Origin: Streptomyces sp. I6
GTDB lineage: Bacteria > Actinomycetota > Actinomycetes > Streptomycetales > Streptomycetaceae
Length of the DNA: 64,000 bases
NCBI GenBank assembly: GCA_003725745.1
Contig: RHDP01000001.1
Span: 2,325,501 to 2,389,500 of the forward strand
Reading direction: 5' to 3'
The notes under the pieces were generated by a model, which was not told where the DNA came from, searched no databases, and saw only the letters and a list, made by a program, of their open reading frames with translations. Positions 12,297 to 63,675 of this stretch are shown here, in pieces. The position numbers and the translations under genes are program-made. Position 1 is the first letter of the stretch. Each line of letters starts with the position of its first letter.

Positions 12297-13320
12297 CGGG
12301 CCACCCCCTCCTTGAGGGTGATCGTGGGCCGCCAGCCGAGCACCGCTTCCATGCGGTGGGTGGACGCGCAGCCGCCGAGCGGGTCACCGGGCGGCATCGG
12401 TGTCTCCACGAACCGCGTGCCCGGGTACTGCTCGGCGACCAGTTCGGCAACAGTGCGGATCCTGGTAGGGGTGCCGGTTCCGATGTTGATCGTCTCGTTG
12501 TGCGCCCGCGGAGCGGCAAGGGCCCGCACGGTGGCGGCGGCGATGTCCTCGACGTGGACCAGGTCCCGGACCTGGTGGCCGCCGCCGTTGAGGTGCAGAG
12601 GCAGCCCCAGGGCGGCGCGGGTAGCGAACCAGGCCACCACCCACGAATGGCTGTTCTCCTTGATGACCTGCGGCTCCCCGTAGACGGAGAAATACCGCAC
12701 GACCGTGTACGAGGTGCCCACGGCGCCCAGCGTGAGAGCGGTCTGCGTCTCGCCCCACGCCTTGGTGTTGGCGTAGACCGACATCGGCCGCAGTGGCGTG
12801 TGCTCGTGGAACTGCGGCGGGACCCGCCCGTAGACGGCTTCCAGCAGCTTGCGCACGGTCCGGTATTCCTTGCACGGGCGTGCCCAGTCCTCCGGGTTCC
12901 CGTTGCCGTAGACGCTGGCCGAGGAGACGAAGACGAGGCGGCGGACCCGGTCGCAGGCGGCCACCGCGTCGAGCAGTACCTGGGTGCCGGTGATGTTGGT
13001 GTGGATCGCCGCCGTGGGCTTGCGGGTACAGGCGGCGACGTCGGCGAGGGCGGCGGCGTGGATCACGTAATCGGACTCGGCCACCGCCTTCCTGACCACG
13101 TCCGGATCCTGGATGTTGCCGACGATGACGTCCGGGTCGGTGGGGTCGATCCCGAACAGGTCGCGGTAGGTGTGCCGGGGGTATGCCTCCAGCGTGCACA
13201 GCAGGACCGGGCGGGCTCCCACCTGACGCAGGCAGGCGGCGATACGGCTGCCGATCAGCCCGGCTCCCCGGTGACCAGCACGGTTCGGCCGGGGAGTTCG
13301 TTCAACTGGATGTCGTGCAC
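12218..13320 (-). CDS. NAD-dependent sugar epimerase/dehydratase (frameshifted; probable 1-base loss)
   Basis: Extended short-chain dehydrogenase, about 367 residues when repaired. The Rossmann motif is split: VLVTG is in one frame and GAGLIGSRIAACL in the next, with one base missing in the CCCC run at 13265-13269. Catalytic features are present: VFVSSASVYG (Ser) and YANTKAWGE (YxxxK). Start GTG 13320 with GGAGG 4 nt upstream. A nucleotide-sugar 4-epimerase or 4,6-dehydratase is most likely. It belongs to the acyltransferase/GT2/deformylase cassette. Confidence 0.82.
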
Positions 13321-52692: not shown

Positions 52693-52736
52693 GGGGCGGC
52701 CGGTCCCACCCTTGTCGGGTGGGTTCCGGCCGCCCC
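52693..52736 (-). terminator. terminator of the RiPP operon
   Basis: GGGGCGGCCGG (52693-52703) pairs with CCGGCCGCCCC (52726-52736), and inside it CCCACCC pairs with GGGTGGG, giving 18 base pairs with a 5-nt loop. It lies 80 nt beyond the last precursor gene. Confidence 0.88.
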
Positions 52737-52815
52737 GGCGGCCGGGACTTACTCAGGTGCCGGGCACGGGCCCGGTCACCGGCTGTCCGTCAGCGGCCTG
52801 TGGCACGGCACGCAC

Positions 52816-53001
52816 TCAGGCGCTGCTCGCCGTGCCCGCGCTGCTGAAGCATCCCGACGGCGTGGAGATGGAGCTGCCGGTGGCGGCGCAGCCCACGGTG
52901 CTGCCGGGCGAGTGGGACGTCGGCAGGACCTCGAGTTCCGGCGCCTCCTGGTCGAGGCGAAGGTCGAGTGCCAGGCCGGTGGCCGGGGTGATGTCGTTCA
53001 T
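52816..53001 (-). CDS. RiPP precursor peptide 1
   Basis: 61 residues. Leader contains LALDLRLDQEAPELEVLP; the core after HSPG is STVGCAATGSSISTPSGC followed by FSSAGTASSA, rich in Ser, Thr, Gly, Ala with two Cys. ATG 53001 has GGGAGGG 5 nt upstream. Last of four homologous genes behind azole- and dehydration-enzyme genes, so Cys/Ser/Thr are the expected modification sites. The cleavage site after PG is inferred from alignment with peptide 2. Confidence 0.85.
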   Translation of the reverse strand: MNDITPATGLALDLRLDQEAPELEVLPTSHSPGSTVGCAATGSSISTPSGCFSSAGTASSA

Positions 53002-53042
53002 GTTTCCCTCCCGTATGACGGTGTGTGCGGGTGTGTGCGGGT

Positions 53043-53104
53043 GTCCGCCGGCGGACCGGCGGGGGTCGGCGATGTCTGCGGCATGTCCTCGGACCCGCCG
53101 CAGA
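53043..53104 (-). other. palindrome and stem-loop between precursors 1 and 2
   Basis: A perfect 14-bp palindrome GTCCGCCGGCGGAC (53043-53056) and an 8-bp stem TCTGCGGC/GCCGCAGA (53075-53082 with 53097-53104). Confidence 0.6.
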
Positions 53105-53158
53105 CGTCCGGGCCGGCGGGGCGAACGGCTCGAGACCGTCGCCCGTGCCTGCGCGGTC

Positions 53159-53338
53159 TCAGTGGCTGCTGGCGGTCGACGCGCTGCTGACCGAAGCGGC
53201 GGGGCAGGACGCGCAGCTGATGCTTCCCGCGCTGCCGACGGTGCTGCCCGGGGCGTATCCGGCCGGCAGCACCTCCAGCTCGGGGCGCTCGCCCTCCAGC
53301 ACGAGTTCCAGTACGTCGGTCTCGGGCAACCTGTCCAT
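53159..53338 (-). CDS. RiPP precursor peptide 2
   Basis: 59 residues. Leader VLELVLEGERPELEVLPAGY; core after APG is STVGSAGSISCASCPAASVS followed by SASTASSH. Two Cys in a CASC motif. ATG 53338 has AGGAGAGA 6 nt upstream. The EVLP leader and the S/T/G/A-rich core align with the three sister genes. Confidence 0.85.
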   Translation of the reverse strand: MDRLPETDVLELVLEGERPELEVLPAGYAPGSTVGSAGSISCASCPAASVSSASTASSH

Positions 53339-53391
53339 GATGTCTCTCCTCTACTCGTGTGACCGGCGTGTCCGCCGGCTCGTCTGTCGGT

Positions 53392-53422
53392 GGCCGGCCG
53401 GGGCCCGGTGGCCCGGCCGGCC
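53392..53422 (-). other. stem-loop between precursors 2 and 3
   Basis: GGCCGGCCGGG (53392-53402) pairs perfectly with CCCGGCCGGCC (53412-53422) around a 9-nt loop, just beyond the stop of precursor 3. Confidence 0.7.
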
Positions 53423-53436
53423 GTGGTGCGGGCGAG

Positions 53437-53595
53437 CTACTTGGAGCTCAGGGTGCTCGCGGTCCCCCAGGTCATGGCCGGGCAGGAACCGGAGCCGACG
53501 GTGGCGGCGGAGGAGACGTTGCCGGCCGAGTACTCCTCGGGGAGCACCTCCAGCTCGGGCTTTTCCTGGTCCAGACGCAGGTCGAGGTCGTTCAT
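53437..53595 (-). CDS. RiPP precursor peptide 3
   Basis: 52 residues. It begins MNDLDLRLDQEKPELEVLPE; the core after YSAG is NVSSAATVGSGSCPAMTWGT followed by ASTLSSK. One Cys and one Trp. ATG 53595 has AGGAGACC upstream. The leader is nearly identical to peptide 1, with 8 extra N-terminal residues lacking. Confidence 0.87.
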   Translation of the reverse strand: MNDLDLRLDQEKPELEVLPEEYSAGNVSSAATVGSGSCPAMTWGTASTLSSK

Positions 53596-53623
53596 TGCGG
53601 TCTCCTGTCATGTGGTGGGTGGT

Positions 53624-53647
53624 GCGGCTCCGGGGATCCGGAGCCGC
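53624..53647 (-). other. stem-loop between precursors 3 and 4
   Basis: GCGGCTCCGG (53624-53633) pairs perfectly with CCGGAGCCGC (53638-53647) around GGAT. Confidence 0.75.
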
Positions 53648-53683
53648 GGTCGGGTCCGTGCGGCCCGACGCGAGCGATCCGTG

Positions 53684-53845
53684 TCAGGTGGAGCTGGCGG
53701 AGCCGGCGCTGCCGATGGTGCCCCCGGGGCAGGAGAAGGATCCGGCCGTGCTGGCGCTACCGGCGCAGTTGCCGGCGGACTGGGTGTCGGGGAGCACCTC
53801 GATCTCGAGGCTCTCCTGCTCGATGCGCAGATCGAGTTCGTTCAT
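53684..53845 (-). CDS. RiPP precursor peptide 4
   Basis: 53 residues. It begins MNELDLRIEQESLEIEVLPD; the core after QSAG is NCAGSASTAGSFSCPGGTIG followed by SAGSASST. Two Cys. ATG 53845 with AAAGGA 8 nt upstream. First precursor downstream of the enzyme genes, 85 bp from the elimination-subunit stop. Confidence 0.87.
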   Translation of the reverse strand: MNELDLRIEQESLEIEVLPDTQSAGNCAGSASTAGSFSCPGGTIGSAGSASST

Positions 53846-53873
53846 CACGCTGTCCTTTCGTGATCTTCAGGCT

Positions 53874-53893
53874 GCGGCCCCGGACGGGGCCGC
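53874..53893 (-). other. stem-loop between enzyme genes and precursor array
   Basis: GCGGCCCC (53874-53881) pairs with GGGGCCGC (53886-53893) around GGAC, 37 nt past the elimination-subunit stop and 28 nt before the precursor 4 start. Position suits an attenuator or a 5' end-protecting structure. Confidence 0.65.
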
Positions 53894-53930
53894 TACGGCG
53901 CCCTTGCCGGACGCCGGGTCTCGGGGCCCG

Positions 53931-54950
53931 CTAGGGGGCGGTCGTGCCGGAGGGCGCGTCGGGATGCGCCCGGGGTGGCGCGGGGGGATCGGAGTGTTCC
54001 GCCCGAGCCGCCACCCGCCCGAGCACGGCCTCTTCGAGGGGGAGGAAGCCGAGCCGGTTGAGCGTCATGTGCATCTGCATCAGCAGCAGACGCGAGGCGA
54101 CGGCATCGGAGTCGACGGCCAGAGCACGTCGTACGCCGTCCGCGAGGTCGCGGCCCAGCGCGTCGGCGGCGGCGGGCAGCGCCGACACGGACTCGGCGTC
54201 GGTAGCGGCGGTGTCCGGCAGCGCGCACGCGGTCCCGGCGTCGGCGTCGGTAGCGGCGGCGCCATCGGTGGCGGCGGTGTCCGGCAGCGCTTCGGCCTCC
54301 CGGTCACCGGTGGACGGTCGTCCCCCCGCCGGCCACCGTTCGGCGATCCGCTCGGTCTCCCGGAGCCAGGCCGGGTCCCCGGCGAGCAGGCCCGTCCAGT
54401 GGCCCCAGTGCAGCTGCCAGATCCGCTCGCGCTGCCTCCGGCCCAGCGTGCCCAGGCAGGACCGCATCACCCGCACCGCGAGGTGTGCCCTGGCCGTGCG
54501 GTCCGCTCCGGTCGCCCGTACCGCGCCCAGGCTCAGTTCGCTGCTTGCCTGGAAGACCTCCTCGGCGATGTCGACGGCCGGAGGGGATCCGTAGTAGTGG
54601 TGCTCCCGGCCGTAGAGGCCGAGGCTGAGCCGGCGGCTGCCGTGACCGGGCAGGCCCTCCTCCGCCCGCGGGTGCAGCCGCCGGACCTCCCCCCGGGCGG
54701 GCGGGGGGACGTGCTCCTTCCACAGGGCGCGGCCGGCCTCCCAGCAGTCGTCGAGCACGGCCGGGGTGCCCCGGAAGCGCACCCGCAGATGCGGGCCGCT
54801 CGCATCGGCGTAGCGGAGGAAGAACCACCGCCGGACGCCCGCCCCTTCGGCAGCGTCGACCCAGCGGGGGACCAGGTCGGCCAGCAGGAGTTCGCCGTCC
54901 CGGTGCCCGGTGTGGTGGATCCGGGCGTAGAGCCATTCCTCGGTGGCCAT
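53931..54950 (-). CDS. thiopeptide-type biosynthesis protein, SpaB_C / elimination-domain fold
   Basis: 339 residues. The N-terminus WLYARIHHTGHRDGELLLADLV, then WFFLRYADASGPHLRVRFRG, matches the C-terminal domain of LanB enzymes and thiopeptide-type bacteriocin proteins. As a stand-alone protein paired with a glutamylation subunit it should eliminate glutamate from glutamylated Ser/Thr, leaving dehydroalanine or dehydrobutyrine. A pyridine-forming cycloaddition role is the alternative, but only one such protein is present. An Ala/Asp/Thr linker (about 225-255) interrupts the fold. ATG 54950 is 1 nt from the LanB stop. Confidence 0.8.
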   Translation of the reverse strand: MATEEWLYARIHHTGHRDGELLLADLVPRWVDAAEGAGVRRWFFLRYADASGPHLRVRFRGTPAVLDDCWEAGRALWKEHVPPPARGEVRRLHPRAEEGLPGHGSRRLSLGLYGREHHYYGSPPAVDIAEEVFQASSELSLGAVRATGADRTARAHLAVRVMRSCLGTLGRRQRERIWQLHWGHWTGLLAGDPAWLRETERIAERWPAGGRPSTGDREAEALPDTAATDGAAATDADAGTACALPDTAATDAESVSALPAAADALGRDLADGVRRALAVDSDAVASRLLLMQMHMTLNRLGFLPLEEAVLGRVAARAEHSDPPAPPRAHPDAPSGTTAP

Positions 54951-54951
54951 C

Positions 54952-57539
54952 TCAGCTCCACTCCCGGTCGTCGACCCGCGCCGGGCGGGCGAAGTGCACG
55001 CAGTGCTCGACCACCCGGGCGTCCGGGTCCGCCGCTGCGGGGCGCCGCGGCAGGCACTCGGTGAAGACCACCACCGTGTCCGGCCGTTCGGTGAGGCGGT
55101 CCAGCAGGTCCAGGCCGGTGGAGGAGGCGAAGGCCAGCCACAGGGGCTTGCGGGCCCTGTCCCCGCGCCGCGGGGCGCCGCTCTCGCCCCTGACGTACAC
55201 CTCGGCGGGCATGCCGTGCTCGCGCCGCCAGGCGTCCGTCCGCTCCAGGAAGTCCGCCGTCTCCTCGCCCGGTTCCCGGCGCGGCACCTCGGACGCCTCG
55301 ATCCGCCACCGCGCCCGCCGGACCGCCGCACCCGCCACGACGTGCCGGGCCGTCACCGCGTGTCCCGTCTCCGCCGGGTCGTCCGGGCGGGTGCCGTCGG
55401 CGAGGCCCGGGGGCAGCCACCAGGGGTCCGCCAGGACGAGCAGGAACCGGGCCGCTCCGCCGACCAGGTGGCGCGGGACGGTGCCGAGGTAGACGGGGGC
55501 CACCGGGGTGCCGCTGCGGCGGCGCAGCTCCAGCGTGTTCACCCGGCTGTCGTGCGCCAGTTCCAGCTCCTCCAGCGGTACGCACGGACCGGACCGGCGC
55601 GGCGCGGTGGGCCAGTGCAGCGACGTGGGGAGGACACCGCAGCTGTCCCCCTGCAGGGGATTGACCTCGCGGGCCGGGACGAACTCCAGGCACTCGGCGT
55701 CCGGATACAGCGTGCGCACCCAGGCGCGGAGCCGTTCGGCGAAGCCCGCCCCGCGCGGGCCCCCGGTGGACTCGTACAACCGGTGGAAGCGGGCGACCAG
55801 CCCTCCCGTACCCGACGAGACCTGGTTGACGACGAGGAGCGGGCCGTCGTCGTACTCCTCGCAGTCCTGGTAGACGACGGCGACCGAGGGCAGGCAACTC
55901 GACCGCCCCGGACGGGCGGGGCGGGCCGTGCCGGGGGTGGGACCGAAAGCGGCCCCGGGGTCTTCGGTGCCACCGGGAGCACCGCGCCCGGCGGGGCCCC
56001 CGGGCTGGCCGGGGATTGCGGGCCCGCCGGGGATTCCGAAAGCGGCCAGCTCCTGAAAGAAGCCGAACACGTCGTCGCAGACACCGTCCGGGCCGAACCG
56101 CGCCACGAACGCGTCGGTGAGCGCCTGGTACTCGGGAGACACCCGCAGGCTGTCGCACGCGGCCCCGGCATGGCGCCGCAGAACCGCGGCCCGCTCGTCG
56201 TCCCGGGGCGGGCCGGGAGGGTGCCCGCCCGGTCCTCGTAGACCAGGGTCACCTCGCGCAGCGGCCAGTCGTCCGCGGCTCCGAGCGCGTCGAGGGTCTC
56301 CTCCAGCGCTTCGCGCAGCCGCGCCAGGCCGGCGGCCCGGGCCGCCGGGCCGCCGCCGGCGATGGTCGCCAGCTCGCCCGTGGCGGTCAGCAGCCGCCCC
56401 GCCGCCCGGCGGTCCGACGGATCGGGGGACGCGGCCAGTGCAGCGGCGACCCAGTCCAGGAGCCGGTCCTGCGGACAGGGGTCGTCGATGTCCAGCAGAC
56501 CGGCCTCCAGGTACCGGGCCAGCCGGACGGCGGGCAGTCCCCGCGGATCCCGCAGGGCGGCGAACAGGTCCTCCCTTCCGCCGGCGTCCAGGACCTCGTC
56601 GTCCGACCAGGCCCAGCCGTCGGTCACCGACTGCCGGGGCTCGCTCAGCCGGGCGGTGGGGCCCGCGGCGCGCAGGGAGCCGTTGACCCGCCAGCGGACC
56701 AGGCCGCGCACCCCGTCCCGGACCGCCGCGGCCCGCAGCAGCACCCGGCCGACCAGGGGGTGCAAGGAGACCCGGACCCGTGCGCCGTGGTCCGCTCCCG
56801 GGACGGCGACATGGGTGAGCGACGACAGCGGGCTGGCCTTGAGCGCGGACCGTACGGCGTACCCGTACGCGGTGAGGCGTTCCCCCCGGTCCAGCGGCCG
56901 CCCGCCCGGCTGCCGCACGCGGCGGGAGAACACGGGTGAGACCAGCGCCAGCGCGCCGGACACCGCGGGCAGGCCCATGAGGTGCCGCAGCGTCCGCTCC
57001 TCGGCCGGTTCCGCGGCCCCGGCACGCAGCCGCAGCAGCTGCCGCAGCCCGGCGAGGGCCCCGGCCCGTTCCACCCAGCGTTCCAGTGCCGAGGTGTCCC
57101 TCGGCATCGGCGCGAGTGCCTCGCGGACCAGTGCGAACAGCTCCGGCGCCACGGGGTCCGGCCGTCCGGCGTGCGCCGCCCTCCGCCAGCGCAGCACCGA
57201 CCGGCGCGCGCCGGTGGTCGGCATCAGCGGTACGGCGTCGTACAGCAGTCCGGTCACCGCCGGTGCCAGGGCGGCCAGTTCCCGGCGGGCCGCGGCGATC
57301 CGGTCCAGGACCTCGGCGACCTGCTCGGCCGCCAGGGGTGCCACGTCGGCCGCCGGAAGCCCGGCGACCCTGCTCAGGGCCGGGCCCTCGGCCAGGAGGT
57401 GTCCGGCGGCAGGTGTGTCCACGGCCGGCGTCGCGGTCGGGAGACGCGTGGCGGTCGGGGCCTGCGCCGCCGCGGAGGGCTGCGCCACCGCCGGAACCCG
57501 GGGCGAGGGCGAGGGCTGCCTCTCGGTCGAGGTCGTCAT
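54952..57539 (-). CDS. LanB-type dehydratase, tRNA-Glu-dependent glutamylation subunit (frameshifted; probable 1-base loss)
   Basis: About 862 residues when repaired. After a Pro/Ala-rich N-terminus come PVAPELFALVREALAPMPRD, VSGALALVSPVFSRRVRQ, YGYAVRSALKASPLSSLTHVAV and VRGLVRWRVNGSLR, typical of the lantibiotic-dehydratase N domain. One base is missing in CCCGGGG at 56201-56210 (after GTLPARP), then RDDERAAVLRRHAGAACDSLRV continues to the C-terminal half (AECLEFVPAREVNPLQGDSCG, VLPTSLHWPTAP). It transfers glutamate from Glu-tRNA to Ser/Thr of the precursor. ATG 57539 overlaps the M50 gene stop (ATGA). Confidence 0.83.
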
Positions 57540-58678
57540 CACGCGCCCCCGAACAGCACCAGCAGGGAACGTACGCAGAACACCGCGACGAGCAGCGCGT
57601 AGGCCAGGCAGACGACTCCGAACACCTGGTAGCGCAGTTGCCGGGAGCGGCTCCGCACGGCGAGCCAGCTCGGCGGCGGCTCCCGCAGCACCCGGCACCG
57701 CAGCGCGGTGAAGGCGCGCGAGCGCAGGTTCAGTGTGCCCATGGCCGACTCCAGCGCGTGGTATCCGTCGGTGGGGAGCAGCGGGTTCAGGTTCGCCAGC
57801 AGCAGGCCGATCTGCAGCCAGACCATCAGCACGCAGAGCTGCCCGAACTGGCCCTCGGCGTACCTCGACAGTGCCGACCAGCCACCCAGCCACAGCACGT
57901 CCTGGGCCACTCCGGCCAGGGCGATGACCACCCGGGACCCGCGGCCGGGGAGCCGGTGGGCGTCGGTGCGGTCCACATAGGCCACGGGGACCAGGTAGAA
58001 GAGGAGGCCGACGCCGATCTCCCGGACGGGGACGCCGTAGTAGCGGCAGGCCAGTCCGTGGGACAGTTCGTGCAGCCCGGTCTGCAGCAGCATGCTGCAG
58101 ACGACGATCGTCCAGCCCCACACCGGGAGGGACAGGTCCGGCCCGCCGGACGCGAGGGGAGCGGCGAGCACCGACCCCGCACCCCACACGGCAAAGACGG
58201 CGGCGGCCGTCCAGAGGAGGCCGAACGGGAGCGGTGCGCGGCGGAGCAGCGCGGCGGGCGGGTCCAGCACGGCGTTGACCCGGGAGCCCACCAGCGGCCG
58301 GCGAGGCATGTGACTGCGGCGTGCGAAGCGCACGGCCGAGGTGTCCCGGCCGCCGTCCGGGGGCACGCTCAGCAGTCCGGCGGCGCGCAGTTCCCCGAGG
58401 AAGTCCAGCACCACCTGCTGGGTGGAGCCGTCACCGCCTCCCGTGCGCGAGGCGCGGGCGGCGAACTCCCGCCCGGTCATGGAGCCGTCGAGGGCCGTGA
58501 GGATCGCGGCCCCGCTCTTCGACAGCCGGGTGTAGTGGCCGCTGACCGGGTCGTAGGCGAGCGGTTCGTGGTGCAGACCCTCGGTGATCTCGACGTCGGG
58601 GCGCATGGTCGGGCGCTCGGTGTCGAGCCAGGACGGCTCAGCGCTGCCGGAGGCGACGTCGGTGGACGGGGCGGTCAT
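57539..58678 (-). CDS. M50-type membrane metallopeptidase with N-terminal PqqD-like domain
   Basis: 379 residues. Residues about 35-95 look like a PqqD/RRE-type winged helix (YTRLSKSGAAILTALDGSMTGREFAARA). Then come about eight membrane spans with the zinc motif HELSHGLACRYYGV (HExxH) and NLNPLLPTDGYHALE, the second metal-ligand motif (NxxPxxxxDG) of site-2-protease-like enzymes. It could cleave leaders at the membrane or help export. ATG 58678 overlaps the next gene's stop (ATGA), so it is firmly in the RiPP operon. Confidence 0.83.
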   Translation of the reverse strand: MTAPSTDVASGSAEPSWLDTERPTMRPDVEITEGLHHEPLAYDPVSGHYTRLSKSGAAILTALDGSMTGREFAARASRTGGGDGSTQQVVLDFLGELRAAGLLSVPPDGGRDTSAVRFARRSHMPRRPLVGSRVNAVLDPPAALLRRAPLPFGLLWTAAAVFAVWGAGSVLAAPLASGGPDLSLPVWGWTIVVCSMLLQTGLHELSHGLACRYYGVPVREIGVGLLFYLVPVAYVDRTDAHRLPGRGSRVVIALAGVAQDVLWLGGWSALSRYAEGQFGQLCVLMVWLQIGLLLANLNPLLPTDGYHALESAMGTLNLRSRAFTALRCRVLREPPPSWLAVRSRSRQLRYQVFGVVCLAYALLVAVFCVRSLLVLFGGA

Positions 58679-59469
58679 CACCGCTCCCCGGTACGGTCGG
58701 CCGGTGCCGGTGCCGGTGCCGGTGCCGGGGCGGACCGGACCGGACGGGGGGAGCCGAGGGCCAGTCCGATCAGCTGTGCCCGGCCGGACCCGTCGATGCC
58801 CAGATGGGTGCGTCCCGCCGCACCGAGCACACCGGCGAACACGGAGCCGGCGGCTCCGAGGGAGAGGGCCGCGAGCCACGTGGCGTGGGCCAGCGCCGCG
58901 CCGCGCGCCAGCAGCAGCCGGTGGCCCCCCGCCCCGTGCCGTTCGGCGGTCGCCGCCAGGTCGCCGTGGACCACTACCAGGGCCGGGGCATCGCCGAACT
59001 CCAGTTGCAGCACGAGGTCGGCGAGCGGCGGCAGGTCGCGCGGCTCGGGCTCCAGCCGCCGCTCCCCGGGGACATAGTGGTGGCAGCCGTCCGGAACGCC
59101 CAGGAGCCGCTGGACCAGTACGGTCGCGGACGGCGCCGGGAGTGTGGGGAAGGCCGGCCGCCACAGCCGCTCGTCCTGCTCGAAGGCGTAACCGAGGGCC
59201 TGGACGAGGACGTCCCCGTCCAGGGGTTCGGGTGCCCAGTGCCGCTGGGCGGTGCGGCGGCGCAGCGCCTGGACGGGGTCGCCGGGCAGTGGGGGAGCCG
59301 CGCCGGGCCGGAAGCCGGCGGTGGCGGTGGACGCCGTGGCGGCCGTGGCGGTGGACACGGTGGCGGACGCGGTGGCCGTGGTGGCGGACGCGGTGGCCGT
59401 GGTGGCGGACGCGGTGGGCGGTGCGGCCAGCAGCTCCTCGGTGAGGCGGGCCGTGTCGATCAGCGGCAC
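58678..59469 (-). CDS. nitroreductase-fold protein, SagB/McbC-like
   Basis: 263 residues. An Ala/Thr/Ser repeat linker (SATTATASATTATASAT) near residue 25 is followed by a nitroreductase-like domain (LRRRTAQRHWAPEPLDGDVLVQALGYAF...RGAALAHATWLAALSLGAAGSVFAG). Several FMN-site residues expected in active azoline dehydrogenases are not obvious, so it may be a partner of the larger fusion protein. GTG 59469 has AAGGGAG and overlaps the fusion gene's end by 10 bp. Confidence 0.7.
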   Translation of the reverse strand: MPLIDTARLTEELLAAPPTASATTATASATTATASATVSTATAATASTATAGFRPGAAPPLPGDPVQALRRRTAQRHWAPEPLDGDVLVQALGYAFEQDERLWRPAFPTLPAPSATVLVQRLLGVPDGCHHYVPGERRLEPEPRDLPPLADLVLQLEFGDAPALVVVHGDLAATAERHGAGGHRLLLARGAALAHATWLAALSLGAAGSVFAGVLGAAGRTHLGIDGSGRAQLIGLALGSPRPVRSAPAPAPAPAPADRTGER

Positions 59470-61217
59470 GAGCCGCTCCCTTCGTCGTGGAGCCGAACGG
59501 CGGCGGTGATGAGCGCGGGCCCGGCGGCACCCACGAGGAGTTCCCGGTGCCGTTGCAGGGGGTGGGGGTCGAGCAGGCCGTGCGCCAGCCCGATCGCCCG
59601 GGCCGTGAGAGCGAGCTGGGCCAGCGCGCATCCGGTGTCGAGGTTCCCCACGCGGTAGGCGAAGGGACCGTACTTCCGGGCGACGCGGCCGACGTCCGAG
59701 GCGAGGACCAGGTGCACGCCGGGCCGTGTCCCGCCGTCCTCGGCTTCCCCGCCCAGTGCCGCGAGGAGGGTGCCGAGGTGTTCGGTGTGGGGGTGCATGG
59801 CGGTGAGCGCGTGGTCGGCGGCGTCGTAGTAGTGGACGCCGTCGGGGAGGCCGGGGACGTCCCGGAGCAGCGCGTAGACATGGGGGGAGCCCAGGTTGCC
59901 GCCGGTCGGGGCCCACCGGTTGACCCGGGTGGGGTCGGTGGACTCCCCCTCGTCGCCGGGGCCGCGCAGCCCGGCGGTGAAGCGCATCAGCGCCGCCAGG
60001 GCTTCCGGCCACGGTGGCGGTTCCGCGCCGGCGGTGAGCTTCTCCAGGTCCGCCAGGGAAGCGTCGGGCAGCGGAAGCCGCGGGTTGTTGGGGTACCTCA
60101 GCCGCTCGAACTGGAGCCCGACGTTCTCCGGGCGGAAGTGGTGCTGGTGCGCCTTGGGGTTGACCAGATGCCGGGGAGGGAAGGCCACGGCGTGCTCGTA
60201 GTGCAGCGGCCCGTCCTCCGGGAGGCCGTCGCGACCCGCGGCGGTCGGGTAGCAGGCACGGCAACCGACTTCGGGGGTCAGTTTGTACGTGGTGGTGGAC
60301 AGGTCCGCGAGGTCCACCACGAGCCGCCCGCCGAGGGACTGGACCGGCTCGCCCCGCAGCAGCAGGGCCCGCAGTTCCTCGGCGATCAGTCCGGCCGCGG
60401 TCGCCGCGCCCGGGGTGGGGGCCGCGTCCAGGAACTCCTCGGGTGGCAGGGGCCGGAGCGCGACGGCGCCACGGGCGCAGTGCGCGCAGGCGGTCGCCGA
60501 CGGGTCCACCAGGGGCCCCACGGCGACCCGTCCGTCCCGCTCGTCCGCCAGCAGCAGCCGGCTGCCGCGCCGGGCGCTCTCCTCGACGATCCGGTCGACC
60601 GTCGCGCGGGGCGCCGCGAGGTCGGCCACGACCAGTGCGTCCTCGGGTGCCTCCTCGCCGGGCGCGAGCGGGAGCACATCGGTGATCCCGAGATCGGCCA
60701 GTGCCGTCCGCAGGGGCTGCTGCCAGGACGCCCGTACGCTCAGCCGCACCCGGGCCCGTGCCGCGGCGAGCGCCGCATGGCTGGAATGGGGGTGGACGCG
60801 GGCGCAGTCCAGCGTCCGCGACATCCAGACCGCGGCCGGCTCCGACGGCCCGTCGCCCTCCGGTGGGGGTACGGTCTGTGCCGCGTCCTCCAGCACCCCG
60901 GCGAAGTAGAGGGTGGCGACGGCCTGGTGGACGGCCGAGTCGCTCCAGCCGGTCGCCCGGGCCAGCCCGGCGATGTCCCGGCTGCCGTCCAGGAGGGGCA
61001 GCAGGAGCCGCCGGAGGGCCGAGGCCGAGGCGCCGCGCAGATGCTGGCGTTCGGCGCCTCCGTCGATGACCACGCCGTCCGGTGTGTCGACCACATGGAG
61101 CCCCCGGCAGAGCTGCGGGCGGGCGGGAAGGCGGAACTGGGGATCGGTGCTCACGGCCGCGGCGACGACCGCCGCGGGCGTGCCGCGCTGTCCCGGCTCG
61201 CTGACGAGGGCGCTCAC
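59460..61217 (-). CDS. E1-like leader-binding domain fused to azoline dehydrogenase (nitroreductase)
   Basis: 585 residues. Residues 20-120 resemble the RiPP-recognition/E1-like region of TOMM cyclodehydratases (FRLPARPQLCRGLHVVDTPDGVVIDGG, then an HTH-like ATGWSDSAVHQAVATLYFAGVL). A Rossmann-like middle has zinc-type Cys (CAHC, CRAC). Residues 360-585 are a SagB-type nitroreductase (RWAPTGGNLGSPHVYALLRD, YYDAADHALTAMHP, GNLDTGCALAQLALTARAIGLAHGL) that would oxidise azolines to azoles with FMN. GTG 61217 overlaps the upstream stop (GTGA). Confidence 0.8.
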   Translation of the reverse strand: MSALVSEPGQRGTPAAVVAAAVSTDPQFRLPARPQLCRGLHVVDTPDGVVIDGGAERQHLRGASASALRRLLLPLLDGSRDIAGLARATGWSDSAVHQAVATLYFAGVLEDAAQTVPPPEGDGPSEPAAVWMSRTLDCARVHPHSSHAALAAARARVRLSVRASWQQPLRTALADLGITDVLPLAPGEEAPEDALVVADLAAPRATVDRIVEESARRGSRLLLADERDGRVAVGPLVDPSATACAHCARGAVALRPLPPEEFLDAAPTPGAATAAGLIAEELRALLLRGEPVQSLGGRLVVDLADLSTTTYKLTPEVGCRACYPTAAGRDGLPEDGPLHYEHAVAFPPRHLVNPKAHQHHFRPENVGLQFERLRYPNNPRLPLPDASLADLEKLTAGAEPPPWPEALAALMRFTAGLRGPGDEGESTDPTRVNRWAPTGGNLGSPHVYALLRDVPGLPDGVHYYDAADHALTAMHPHTEHLGTLLAALGGEAEDGGTRPGVHLVLASDVGRVARKYGPFAYRVGNLDTGCALAQLALTARAIGLAHGLLDPHPLQRHRELLVGAAGPALITAAVRLHDEGSGSCR

Positions 61218-61873
61218 CGCTCGCCTCCCGCCGCGGTGCCCGTGGCGAGCGGCAGCTCGTCGGCGAGCCACCGCCAGCCGTCGTCCGGGTCCACCGGCGT
61301 GCCGCACTCCTCGCAGCCGTGGACGCCGATGACCGTGTCGGAGAACAGCGACCGGCTCAGCATGTTGTAGAAGGTCACCTGCCCGGGTACGGCACCGTCG
61401 CCGGTGCGGTAGCGGGTGAGGAGGTCCACGGCGAGGCCGGCCGCGATCATGGCCTGCGCGTCGGTGAACCCGGCGATCCCGTGGCCGGGGTCGGCCGCCC
61501 TCGACTCCTGCAGGGCCCGGGAGACCTCGCGCCCCCGCTCGTGCTGGGTCCGGCGCCGGGTGTAGCAGGAGTGGCAGGGGCCCTCGCCCGGCACGACCAG
61601 GGGGCCGATCCTGATGAGGGGGAACTCCTGGACGACCGGGAGCCAGGTCGTGCGGCACGCGCTGTGCAACCGGGCGACCCCCTCCAGGAGTGCGGGTTCG
61701 TCCCGCCAGAGGGCGAGCACGCGGAGCGTGGTGTGGGGCCACTCGGCGGACCGGCTCCCGAGGGCGTCGGCGGTGGCGGAGGGCCAGTCGGTGAGCGCGG
61801 TCAGGTGGTCGGCGACCCTCCTGCCGAACGTCCCGGTCCACAGGATGTGCGCGGGTGCGGTGGTGAACGGCAC
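61214..61873 (-). CDS. TOMM cyclodehydratase E1-like partner (ocin-ThiF type)
   Basis: 219 residues. HILWTGTFGRRVADHLTAL begins a ThiF/E1-like nucleotide-fold domain. CHSC and CEEC (about residues 100 and 190) form the structural zinc site. The stretch FPLIRIGPLVVPGEGPCHSCYTRR is the TOMM hallmark. It should deliver the precursor leader to YcaO. GTG 61873 with AGGAGAG upstream, 12 bp after ycaO. Confidence 0.83.
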   Translation of the reverse strand: MPFTTAPAHILWTGTFGRRVADHLTALTDWPSATADALGSRSAEWPHTTLRVLALWRDEPALLEGVARLHSACRTTWLPVVQEFPLIRIGPLVVPGEGPCHSCYTRRRTQHERGREVSRALQESRAADPGHGIAGFTDAQAMIAAGLAVDLLTRYRTGDGAVPGQVTFYNMLSRSLFSDTVIGVHGCEECGTPVDPDDGWRWLADELPLATGTAAGGER

Positions 61874-61885
61874 GGCGGTTCTCTC

Positions 61886-63250
61886 CTAGGCGAAGGGCTG
61901 CGGGTGGGGGTTGAGTGCGTGTTCCGGGTGACTGGTGAGCCCCATCGCGACCGGTGCCCGGTAGAGCCGGGGGTGCGCCAGGTAGCGGTTGCGGTGCACG
62001 AAGGACAGCGGCATCAGCTGGGGTACGACCACCCGTACCGAGCGGAGTCCGGCGCGCCGGGCCTCGTCCGTCGTCAGCTCCACCGCGATCACCTCGGCGT
62101 CCACCGCGGCCAGCCGCTCCACCAGCCAGGACAGCTGCCGTTCCGGAGGGCCGGCCGGTGCCCGCGGGAGGTCCGCGGGCACCCGGGTGGTGCGCTGCCC
62201 GCTCAGCAGGAAGTCGAAGGCGTCACGCCGCTCGGGGCGCCCCATGTGGAGGGCGCCGTGCAGCACACTGGTGAAGTCCCGCGGGTCCTCGGGGACGGTG
62301 TGCGGGGCCTGCAGGGCGATGCGCGAGGAGGCCGCCTCCCGGTAGATCTTGCGGATGACCTCGGCGGGGTCGGTCCCGGTCGCGCACATCACGAGCTGGC
62401 CCAGGGTGTCGTTGTGGTCGCTGAGCACGACCGCGTAGACCGTGGGAACGCCCACGTCCGTGGTGGCGTCGTAGAAGCGGTACTCCACGAAGCCGTCCCT
62501 GACCCGCCGGTGCTGCTCCCGCAGGGACGGCTCGCCGGCGACGTCGATCTCCGGCAGTTCGAGGCGCTGGAGCCAGACCAGCGCGATCGCGTCGCGTTCG
62601 ATCGCCTCGCAGATACCGTTCACCAGCGCCTGGTGCAGATCCGAGTGGATCGCGCAGCCGGTCGAGATGGGGTTGGCGATCCGCTCTCCCATCGCCTCGT
62701 GCGCGGTGAACAGCCAGACGTAGGACGCGGGGATCCAGACCGGGCGGCTGCGGGTGAGCGACCAGCCGCGCACCCAGCGCTGCGGCAGCGAACTGTCGGG
62801 GTGGATCAGCCAGTTCGCCTCGTCGGACAGCTCCGTCTCCGAGCAGCGCGGGAGCGCGTCGAGGTCGACCGCCTCGTCGCCGAGCTCGTCCGCGGTCGCC
62901 CAGCGCACCAGTTGCGGCTGGTAGAAGGAGTTGGTGTAGCGCTCCAGGGCCTCGGCGACACTGATCAGCCGGGCCCGCTCGGGGTCGGTGCCGCCTCCGG
63001 CACCGTCCAGCCCCTGGGGCTGGGCGGGGGTGTCGGACCAGAGGGCGGTGGGGTCGCCGATGGACGAGACGAAGACCGAGTAGGGGGGCTCGCCCGGCAG
63101 GTTGGGAAGGAGCTGGGACCCCCGCACCGGCCGCCCGGCAGGCCCGACGACGGCCTCCAGCCGCCGGAGCCCGGCGAGGTCGTCCTCCGTCGCGCCGTCC
63201 CCCCGGTCCGCGGCGGCGGTCCGGTCGTCCCTCGCACGTGCATCCAGCAC
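61886..63250 (-). CDS. YcaO-domain cyclodehydratase
   Basis: 454 residues. ATP-binding YcaO signatures: SVAEALERYTNSF, NPISTGCAIHSDLHQALVNG and ICEAIERDAIALVWLQRLEL. The C-terminus NPHPQPFA is the Pro-rich end that organises the active site in azoline-forming YcaOs. It phosphorylates the amide backbone and cyclises Cys/Ser/Thr to azolines. GTG 63250 is preceded by AGGAGG at 6 nt. First gene of the operon; all following genes overlap or are spaced under 15 bp until the precursor array. Confidence 0.93.
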   Translation of the reverse strand: MLDARARDDRTAAADRGDGATEDDLAGLRRLEAVVGPAGRPVRGSQLLPNLPGEPPYSVFVSSIGDPTALWSDTPAQPQGLDGAGGGTDPERARLISVAEALERYTNSFYQPQLVRWATADELGDEAVDLDALPRCSETELSDEANWLIHPDSSLPQRWVRGWSLTRSRPVWIPASYVWLFTAHEAMGERIANPISTGCAIHSDLHQALVNGICEAIERDAIALVWLQRLELPEIDVAGEPSLREQHRRVRDGFVEYRFYDATTDVGVPTVYAVVLSDHNDTLGQLVMCATGTDPAEVIRKIYREAASSRIALQAPHTVPEDPRDFTSVLHGALHMGRPERRDAFDFLLSGQRTTRVPADLPRAPAGPPERQLSWLVERLAAVDAEVIAVELTTDEARRAGLRSVRVVVPQLMPLSFVHRNRYLAHPRLYRAPVAMGLTSHPEHALNPHPQPFA

Positions 63251-63675
63251 TGGCTGCCTCCTGTCATCCGTGCGCAGCGATCGGCTGAAGCCAACCGGTG
63301 GGCCGGTGGAGGAGGCATCACGCGTCGGGGGTGAAACGCGTTCCGGGGGCTGGACGGCGTGAGGGTGACGGAGCATCACCCGTCGTGCGAGGCGACGTGG
63401 CGGGCACTCCCACGCCGGGCGGCACCGCACACCCACCGGACGCCCCCACGCCGGGCAGCACCACACACCCACCGGACGCCCCCACGCCGGGCAGCACCAC
63501 ACACCCACCGGACGCCCACACCCCGGGCAGCACCACACACCCACCGGACACCCACACCCCAGGCAGCACCCCACCGCACACCCACCGGACACCCACACCC
63601 CAGGCAGCACCCCACCGCACACCGGCGTCGGCGACCGGGGAGCGTGGTCCCGGCGCCGGCGGGGGCCGTGCGGGA
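63251..63675. other. 425-bp upstream region of the RiPP operon
   Basis: Lies between ycaO and the luxR-type gene, both read leftward. It should carry the operon promoter, probably in 63251-63400. The rest is dominated by a 36-bp tandem array. No separate gene supported. Confidence 0.55.
63409..63625. repeat. 36-bp tandem repeat, about 5.5 copies
   Basis: Unit contains ACACCCACCGGACGCCC, CCACGCCGGGCAGCACC and variants. Copies begin at 63409, 63445 and 63481 at exact 36-bp spacing, then diverge (GACACCCACACCCCAGG) with a 6-bp insertion in the last ones. Contiguous, without spacers, so not a CRISPR. Confidence 0.88.

Follow-up and report, generated by a model that had tools for sequence, protein, structure and literature searches.

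Spongiicolazolicins A and B of Streptomyces pacificus CWH03 (Suzuki et al. 2021, doi 10.1007/s00253-020-11016-w) and goadsporin of Streptomyces sp. TP-A0584 are the described peptides closest to the predicted products of an operon in Streptomyces sp. I6, which we analysed within a 64,000-nucleotide stretch of contig RHDP01000001.1 (positions 2,325,501 to 2,389,500; hereafter the window) and which encodes a ribosomally synthesized and post-translationally modified peptide (RiPP) pathway. A reference-list title calls S. pacificus "spongiicolazolicin-producing," and the available passages of a review name CWH03 as the producer, give spongiicolazolicins A and B as 29 and 28 residues long, and state that no antibacterial activity was found. 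Passages of two further papers describe the fragmentation of spongiicolazolicin B into tripeptide blocks (PMC11583998) and group the spongiicolazolicins with goadsporin as peptides containing azoles and dehydro residues (PMC10676384). Goadsporin itself appears, in the paper passages available, as a core of 19 residues for which positions T2, T5, C8, S4, S9, S14, and S15 are given; its enzymes require X-S/T/C-X, and its dehydroalanine (Dha) arises where an azole follows.

An operon shared with S. pacificus CWH03

Comparison with these systems suggests, with a probability of about 0.87, that the window carries this organism's spongiicolazolicin operon, a goadsporin-type pathway to linear azole- and dehydro-residue-containing peptides with four precursors. 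The genes lie on the minus strand and read from 63376 to 52819 in the following order (aa, amino acids; GC, guanine plus cytosine):

61889..63376, minus strand: YcaO cyclodehydratase, 496 aa when counted from the chosen ATG, start codon uncertain (PF02624; TIGR03604, 302.1 bits, cut-off 219.25; homology to CWH03)
61217..61873, minus strand: E1-like leader-binding partner, 219 aa (TIGR03882, 55.6 bits, cut-off 36.9; no match in the Pfam scan)
59463..61217, minus strand: E1-like/SagB-type dehydrogenase fusion, 585 aa (TIGR03882, 37.3 bits, cut-off 36.9; TIGR03605; PF00881; aligned with four relatives)
58681..59472, minus strand: second SagB/nitroreductase-like protein, 264 aa from a CTC codon, start uncertain (PF00881; homologues in relatives)
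57542..58678, minus strand: PqqD-like domain plus M50 intramembrane protease (PF02163, E 3.4e-9; conserved motifs HELSH and NPLLPTDGY)
56202..57539, minus strand: lanB glutamylation protein, 5' part up to a frame break (frame change in third-position GC)
54955..56142, minus strand: lanB glutamylation protein, 3' part, from the first start codon past the break (third-position GC; sister copies)
53934..54950, minus strand: SpaB_C (Lant_dehydr_C) protein, 339 aa, likely glutamate elimination (PF14028, E 7.5e-34; profile of 10 relatives)
53687..53845, minus strand: precursor A1, 53 aa, core NCAGSASTAGSFSCPGGTIGSAGSASST (NF033482, 56.3 bits; triplet pattern; core as in CWH03)
53440..53595, minus strand: precursor A2, 52 aa, core (G)NVSSAATVGSGSCPAMTWGTASTLSSK (NF033482, 63.9 bits; core as in CWH03)
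53162..53338, minus strand: precursor A3, 59 aa, core STVGSAGSISCASCPAASVSSASTASSH (NF033482, 57.8 bits; triplet pattern; CWH03 counterpart)
52819..53001, minus strand: precursor A4, 61 aa, core STVGCAATGSSISTPSGCFSSAGTASSA (NF033482, 54.6 bits; triplet pattern; CWH03 counterpart)

The CWH03 locus is the best of the 21 loci recovered by a contig scan with the E1/SagB alignment and has the same gene order. Identities between window and CWH03 proteins reach 96% for YcaO (over 460 aa), 95% for the E1-like protein, 94% for both the E1/SagB fusion and the M50 protease, 87% for the second SagB-like protein, 82% for SpaB_C, and 80 and 82% for the two LanB pieces. Three of the four cores are identical, A4 along its entire precursor, while the A3 core has two substitutions. 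With the first triplet as the starting point, A1, A3, and A4 measure 28 residues, or 29 with the preceding Gly, and A2 measures 28 with its own Gly or 29 with the Ala before that Gly; A1 to A4 hold two, one, two, and two Cys residues, each at the middle position of a triplet. These comparisons argue strongly, if indirectly, for this operon as the source of spongiicolazolicins A and B; the chemistry is of a known kind and the product very likely a known one, and the operon very probably makes straight-chain peptides with azoles and dehydrated residues. Placing the cluster with the spongiicolazolicin kind saves re-discovery and gives masses to look for. With every azole formed, the predicted [M+H]+ values of the 29- and 28-residue forms are 2269.783 and 2212.762 for A1 (at most 3 Dha), 2526.035 and 2454.998 for A2 (at most 4), 2346.868 and 2289.846 for A3 of the window (at most 6), and 2328.846 and 2271.824 for A4 (at most 5), each Dha lowering the value by 18.011. 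The series of A3 and A4 overlap at low resolution, and the A3 core of CWH03 is equal in mass to that of the window.

An original prediction, made from the letters of the window alone, had described this gene set on one strand with four precursors of 52 to 61 codons, and the profiles bear it out except for the frame of lanB, which it had read as one gene and which shows a frame break near 56.2 kb here and is intact in two sister genomes. The cores, which it did not recognise, are those of CWH03 in three of four cases. A known cluster with the same precursor family, which it had named as grounds for its rejection, is therefore at hand in the CWH03 operon, unless the spongiicolazolicins stem from another CWH03 cluster.

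A triplet pattern across the precursor family

The cores consist of X-(S/T/C)-X triplets arranged around a CP or TP hinge. A nine-position triplet pattern, which was derived from the precursor family itself and allows Asn at its first position, matched, across all six frames of the window, the four precursors and nothing else, and had no match in 50 mononucleotide shuffles of the window (3.2 Mb); a chance origin was rejected on the basis of these shuffles.

To describe the family, 101 candidate frames from 29 sequences were chosen for tails rich in S/T/C, a choice that biases composition and not register. Sixteen frames were dropped: 12 from loci L017, L018, and L019, whose tails equal those kept from L042 and L037, one thiopeptide-like frame from L022, two from L033 and L035, and one minus-strand frame in L046. 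With three A2 precursors added by hand, the final set comprised 65 distinct 40-residue tails, 64 with the CP/TP hinge and one, the orphan precursor described below, without it. Among the 64 hinge tails are 61 distinct 28-residue cores, many of them from related strains and not independent; A2 of L031 and one precursor of L044 were missed by the filter and stand outside the 64.

The two hinge positions were used for alignment and excluded from the count. All eight non-anchor positions are filled in 60 of the 64 distinct tails, and S/T/C occupies 502 of 512 non-anchor middle positions, 367 of 576 first positions, and 15 of 448 third positions. Shuffling within the cores over 2000 rounds gave a mean occupancy of 0.529, a maximum of 0.594, and at most three full cores per round. 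A1, A3, and A4 are among the 60 complete tails; A2 keeps the pattern except for Asn at the first middle position and so lacks one. The four incomplete tails are two A2 forms with this Asn, one of them common to the window and CWH03, and two L044 tails without the spacer. The L044 precursors (L044:12337-12696 and 13140-13319) have no spacer residue following the CP hinge, and their triplets run uninterrupted.

The goadsporin core, which we take to be ATV STI LCS G GTL SSA GCV, has the same triplet layout with a spacer. The rule in the 64 tails suggests that the motif reading described in vitro for goadsporin enzymes also operates in natural operons with several precursors. The literature searched turned up no description of the core strings, of the goadsporin-M50-SagB-azole-tripeptide combination, of the family-wide pattern, or of the orphan precursor; the family-wide CP/TP-hinge triplet pattern is new as far as searched.

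Probable dehydration chemistry and alternative readings

The operon combines a YcaO (PF02624, E 1.4e-66) and a flavin oxidase (the fusion, at 28.1 bits on PF00881 over the cut-off of 23.5) with a split LanB, in which separate proteins serve glutamylation and elimination and the glutamylation gene is frame-broken here. LanB reached no Pfam model, either with the window pieces or with the intact CWH03 copy. The intact LanB of L016 (genome G274) matched PDB chain 9jhq, "Goadsporin biosynthetic protein," at E 5.6e-40 and, more weakly, 6ec7, presumably TbtB, at E 1.6e-13. In SpaB_C proteins, elimination and pyridine-synthase functions are expected to share one fold. A profile of the 10 relatives matched 5ehk (1.5e-19; we take this to be the lantibiotic dehydratase MibB), 9g04 (1.2e-9), NisB (1.4e-7), TsrE (3.9e-6), and TbtD (3.9e-5). 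An Arg-rich strand aligns with NisB and a conserved HMxxNR with HMTCNR of 5ehk, and TsrE, in a low-scoring alignment, has Asn in place of the His. This His, aligned to 5ehk, presumably corresponds to NisB H961. The NisB variants R786A, R826A, and H961A show glutamylation without elimination, according to the passages available (PMC4979651). Together with the score of only 26.9 bits (cut-off 325) for the window SpaB_C on NF045556, the TbtD/PbtD pyridine synthase model, the profile ranking and the motif alignments favour elimination over cycloaddition for SpaB_C.

These results support the linear azole peptides with Dha or dehydrobutyrine (Dhb), goadsporin class, that the original prediction had proposed, through the match of LanB to 9jhq and the ranking for SpaB_C. 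The single SpaB_C protein that it reported was found again in the operon, and LanC, which it gave as absent, had no match in Pfam scans that covered the operon proteins and not the remainder of the genome. Its expectation of neither lanthionine nor a thiopeptide pyridine was supported in both respects, and the outcome that it had named as a refutation, a pyridine-synthase profile beating the elimination profile, did not occur.

A lanthipeptide reading was rejected on the missing LanC match among the operon proteins. A thiopeptide cluster, in which this SpaB_C or one elsewhere would form a pyridine from two Dha, would account for the match of the precursors to a model named "thiocillin family RiPP" and for the weak pyridine synthase score; the genome's other SpaB_C also falls below the NF045556 cut-off, at 91.3 bits, so that a divergent synthase may likewise score under this threshold. 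This reading was nevertheless rejected as highly improbable: the window SpaB_C scores 82.2 on the general model TIGR03891, its relatives' profile and its HMxxNR motif point to dehydratases with elimination domains, the operon holds no second SpaB_C, the genome's other one lies in a separate cluster, and no match over the NF045556 cut-off was found in the window genome. That separate cluster (L022, G000 C1:6466000-6484000, G000 being the window genome) holds YcaO-, SagB-, LanB-, SpaB_C-, and M50-like stretches and bears on a different concern, namely that the operon serves a related but distinct goadsporin-type pathway and that a different YcaO cluster in CWH03 makes the spongiicolazolicins. 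Both genomes have a second cluster of YcaO and SpaB_C genes; CWH03 has four YcaO matches, one in the operon and three, a possible source, on another contig with a second SpaB_C. The only precursor-like frame that the filter found in L022 is thiopeptide-like (STSCSSTSTCSSTTSTTSCSA), the CWH03 copy not having been read, and L022 has no match to the triplet pattern. The published mass spectrometry, as far as the passages describe it, is tripeptide-based, and the 28 to 29 residues fit this operon, which makes a separate source very unlikely.

The broken lanB raises a third alternative, a decaying operon in which lanB is a pseudogene and this organism makes azoles only. Third-position GC places the frame switch between about 56250 and 56160, and lanB is a single open frame in both L016 and CWH03 (L029). 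GC at the codon positions nevertheless stays coding-like on either side of the break, and both LanB pieces are as close to CWH03 as SpaB_C is. The window genome has a completeness of 87.42, against 100 for G274, and a second-cluster YcaO is likewise split over two frames (G000 C1:6468466-6468481) and is in one piece in G274 and CWH03. For these reasons both breaks in RiPP genes are likely indel errors of the assembly, and decay is unlikely.

Several points weigh against assigning the operon to the spongiicolazolicins. Some enzyme scores fall slightly below curated cut-offs: the fusion reaches 77.3 bits on TIGR03605 (SagB; cut-off 78.4), and the second SagB-like protein 23.2 bits on PF00881. 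A1 to A4 score between 54.6 and 63.9 bits on NCBIfam NF033482, a model named "thiocillin family RiPP" whose cut-off is 25. The precursor family is thus already known to annotation, and the public label could mislead genome miners, no pyridine synthase having been found in the operon. Neither the transporter-peptidase GodB nor the acetyltransferase GodH was found by Pfam among the operon proteins, the flanks having been partly profiled. If the lanB break is real, the strain may not form Dha. The spongiicolazolicins, moreover, were compared through descriptions in other papers, as far as their passages go, rather than through a published core or gene cluster, and the three further YcaO matches of CWH03 belong on this side as well.

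Proposed pathway and operon surroundings

From the gene content, homology, core pattern, and close identity to the CWH03 operon, which were seen directly, we infer the chemistry, its step order, the role of the M50 protein, and the cleavage site as follows. The E1-like proteins would hold the acidic leader (...LEVLP...), and YcaO would cyclise the Ser, Thr, or Cys at the centre of each X-(Ser/Thr/Cys)-X triplet, giving an azoline that the SagB-type enzymes would oxidise to an azole. LanB would glutamylate Ser or Thr immediately before an azole, and SpaB_C would eliminate the glutamate to give Dha or Dhb. The PqqD-M50 membrane protease would then cleave close to the (A/P)G junction to remove the leader and may in addition release the product, a set of predicted linear peptides of 28 to 29 residues with eight or nine azoles.

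The PqqD-M50 protein is likely a leader protease and perhaps a leader-guided one, to judge by its domains: it scores 138.6 bits on the daptide protease model NF041824 (below the cut-off of 300) and 20.3 bits on the PqqD-related model TIGR04353 (below 35). The original prediction had overlooked its PqqD-like domain. Compared with lasso-peptide leader-binding proteins, a profile of the M50 family gave weak matches to TfuB1 (E 0.011) and TbiB1 (E 0.64). No ABC transporter or acetyltransferase matched in the Pfam scans of the operon proteins, flanking frames being only partly profiled, and an exporter or immunity gene may lie at a greater distance. The epipeptide protease EpeP, which is thought, in the passages available, to cleave and export, offers a precedent for the lack of an exporter gene here. 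The Pfam scan placed an HTH/DUF5753 gene on one flank of the operon and a gene with an AAA domain on the other. The latter presumably has a LuxR-like end, and the frames beyond the former are, as we take them, ftsE-, ftsX-, and smpB-like genes.

Distribution of the operon type

The M50 protease, LanB, and triplet precursors occur together in 19 of the 21 loci from the contig scan. The precursor filter, which overlooks at least one precursor each in L031 and L044, counted four precursors in 12 of these loci, five in 5, and three in 2. The other two loci, L033 and L035, have a YcaO and an E1/SagB fusion; their precursor (L035:6515-6703) is of a type ending ASCTTSSVSTSSSSSSS, which we take to be berninamycin-like. 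SpaB_C was detected in 13 of the 21 loci at the threshold used; in G274, two additional SpaB_C matches stand near each other at C1:7128739-7131639, distant from the operon. An M50 match at E <=1e-20 occurs in 66 of 392 Streptomyces genomes; 16 of the 66 exceed 360 bits, and the next best reaches 103 bits. These 16, whose neighbourhoods were partly read, are taken as carrying the operon type. A locus in G010 (L020, E 0.006) was treated as chance, none of the window proteins matching there, and a plasmid search with the E1/SagB fusion returned five records, none covering 80% of the query.

An orphan fifth precursor

A fifth precursor, beyond the window and hence out of reach of the original prediction, was found 4.5 Mb from the operon at G000 C1:6915019-6915168, with the core STVGTGSSVSTIGGTAGTIGTVGCG. 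This core reads as two blocks of four triplets separated by a spacer and lacks the CP hinge; the precursor is new as far as searched. Its copies lie in three different surroundings:

L021:10020-10169: orphan precursor of the window genome
L054:8068-8217: orphan precursor copy
L074:9240-9389: orphan precursor copy

The close copies are those of CWH03 (82% identical to the window genome's) and G534 (96%). Among the 392 genomes, three hold the orphan (one being CWH03, G608, with the same places as G297), and the same three hold operon-type precursors and the M50 protease. Four further matching genomes, at 59% identity or less, each show a group of three neighbouring matches that resembles the operon arrangement, their surroundings not having been read. 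Within 18 to 19 kb around each orphan copy, tblastn found precursors only and none of the operon enzymes (L021 includes 1044 masked or unknown bases). The window genome shares only about 380 bp of flanking DNA with G534 and about 165 bp with CWH03, and the places therefore differ. Presumably, the neighbouring frames in the window genome are transposase- and maturase-like. Between the window genome and CWH03, non-synonymous and synonymous differences are 0.104 and 0.362 for the orphan and 0.045 and 0.288 for its core, on a small sample.

Distally encoded precursors are known for heterocycloanthracins, according to the passages available. Because the G534 orphan is 96% identical to that of the window genome, yet the enzymes of the G534 operon (L075) are only 53 to 80% identical to the window's, we tentatively consider, at somewhat less than even odds, that the orphan is modified in trans by the operon enzymes to an eight-triplet goadsporin-like peptide, and that such precursors pass from genome to genome as single genes of benefit only in genomes with the operon. 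The orphan offers a direct test case for enzymes acting on remotely encoded substrates.

Comparison with known systems

Goadsporin shares with the window operon a YcaO, an oxidase, and a split LanB that is homologous to the window type (5.6e-40), and, as far as the passages describe it, the X-S/T/C-X rule and Dha before azoles. It differs in having one precursor with 19 core residues, as opposed to four with 28 to 29, and in GodB and GodH, in place of which the window operon has a PqqD-M50 protease; unlike goadsporin, the window operon also encodes two E1-like and two SagB-like proteins. Nostatin A, in the passages available (PMC11583998), resembles the predicted products in its tripeptide blocks of Dha or Dhb, azole, and residue, and differs in its nitrile hydratase-like leader. 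The carnazolamide and dehydrazole peptides likewise contain azoles and dehydro residues, with dehydration only beside azoles, whereas their dehydration domain is of the LanM type and not a split LanB, as the passages available describe them (PMC10676384). The daptide M50 protease model (NF041824) matches most of the window protein, including its PqqD-like part, although below its cut-off, and neither a daptide precursor nor the partner enzymes could be recognised in the window. Most similar are the spongiicolazolicins, which differ by two core residues in the window's A3 and by the lanB broken in this assembly, and which agree in what we take to be the same operon, carried by CWH03, and, as far as the available passages describe them, in a length of 28 to 29 residues, in being linear azole peptides, and in their fragmentation into tripeptides.

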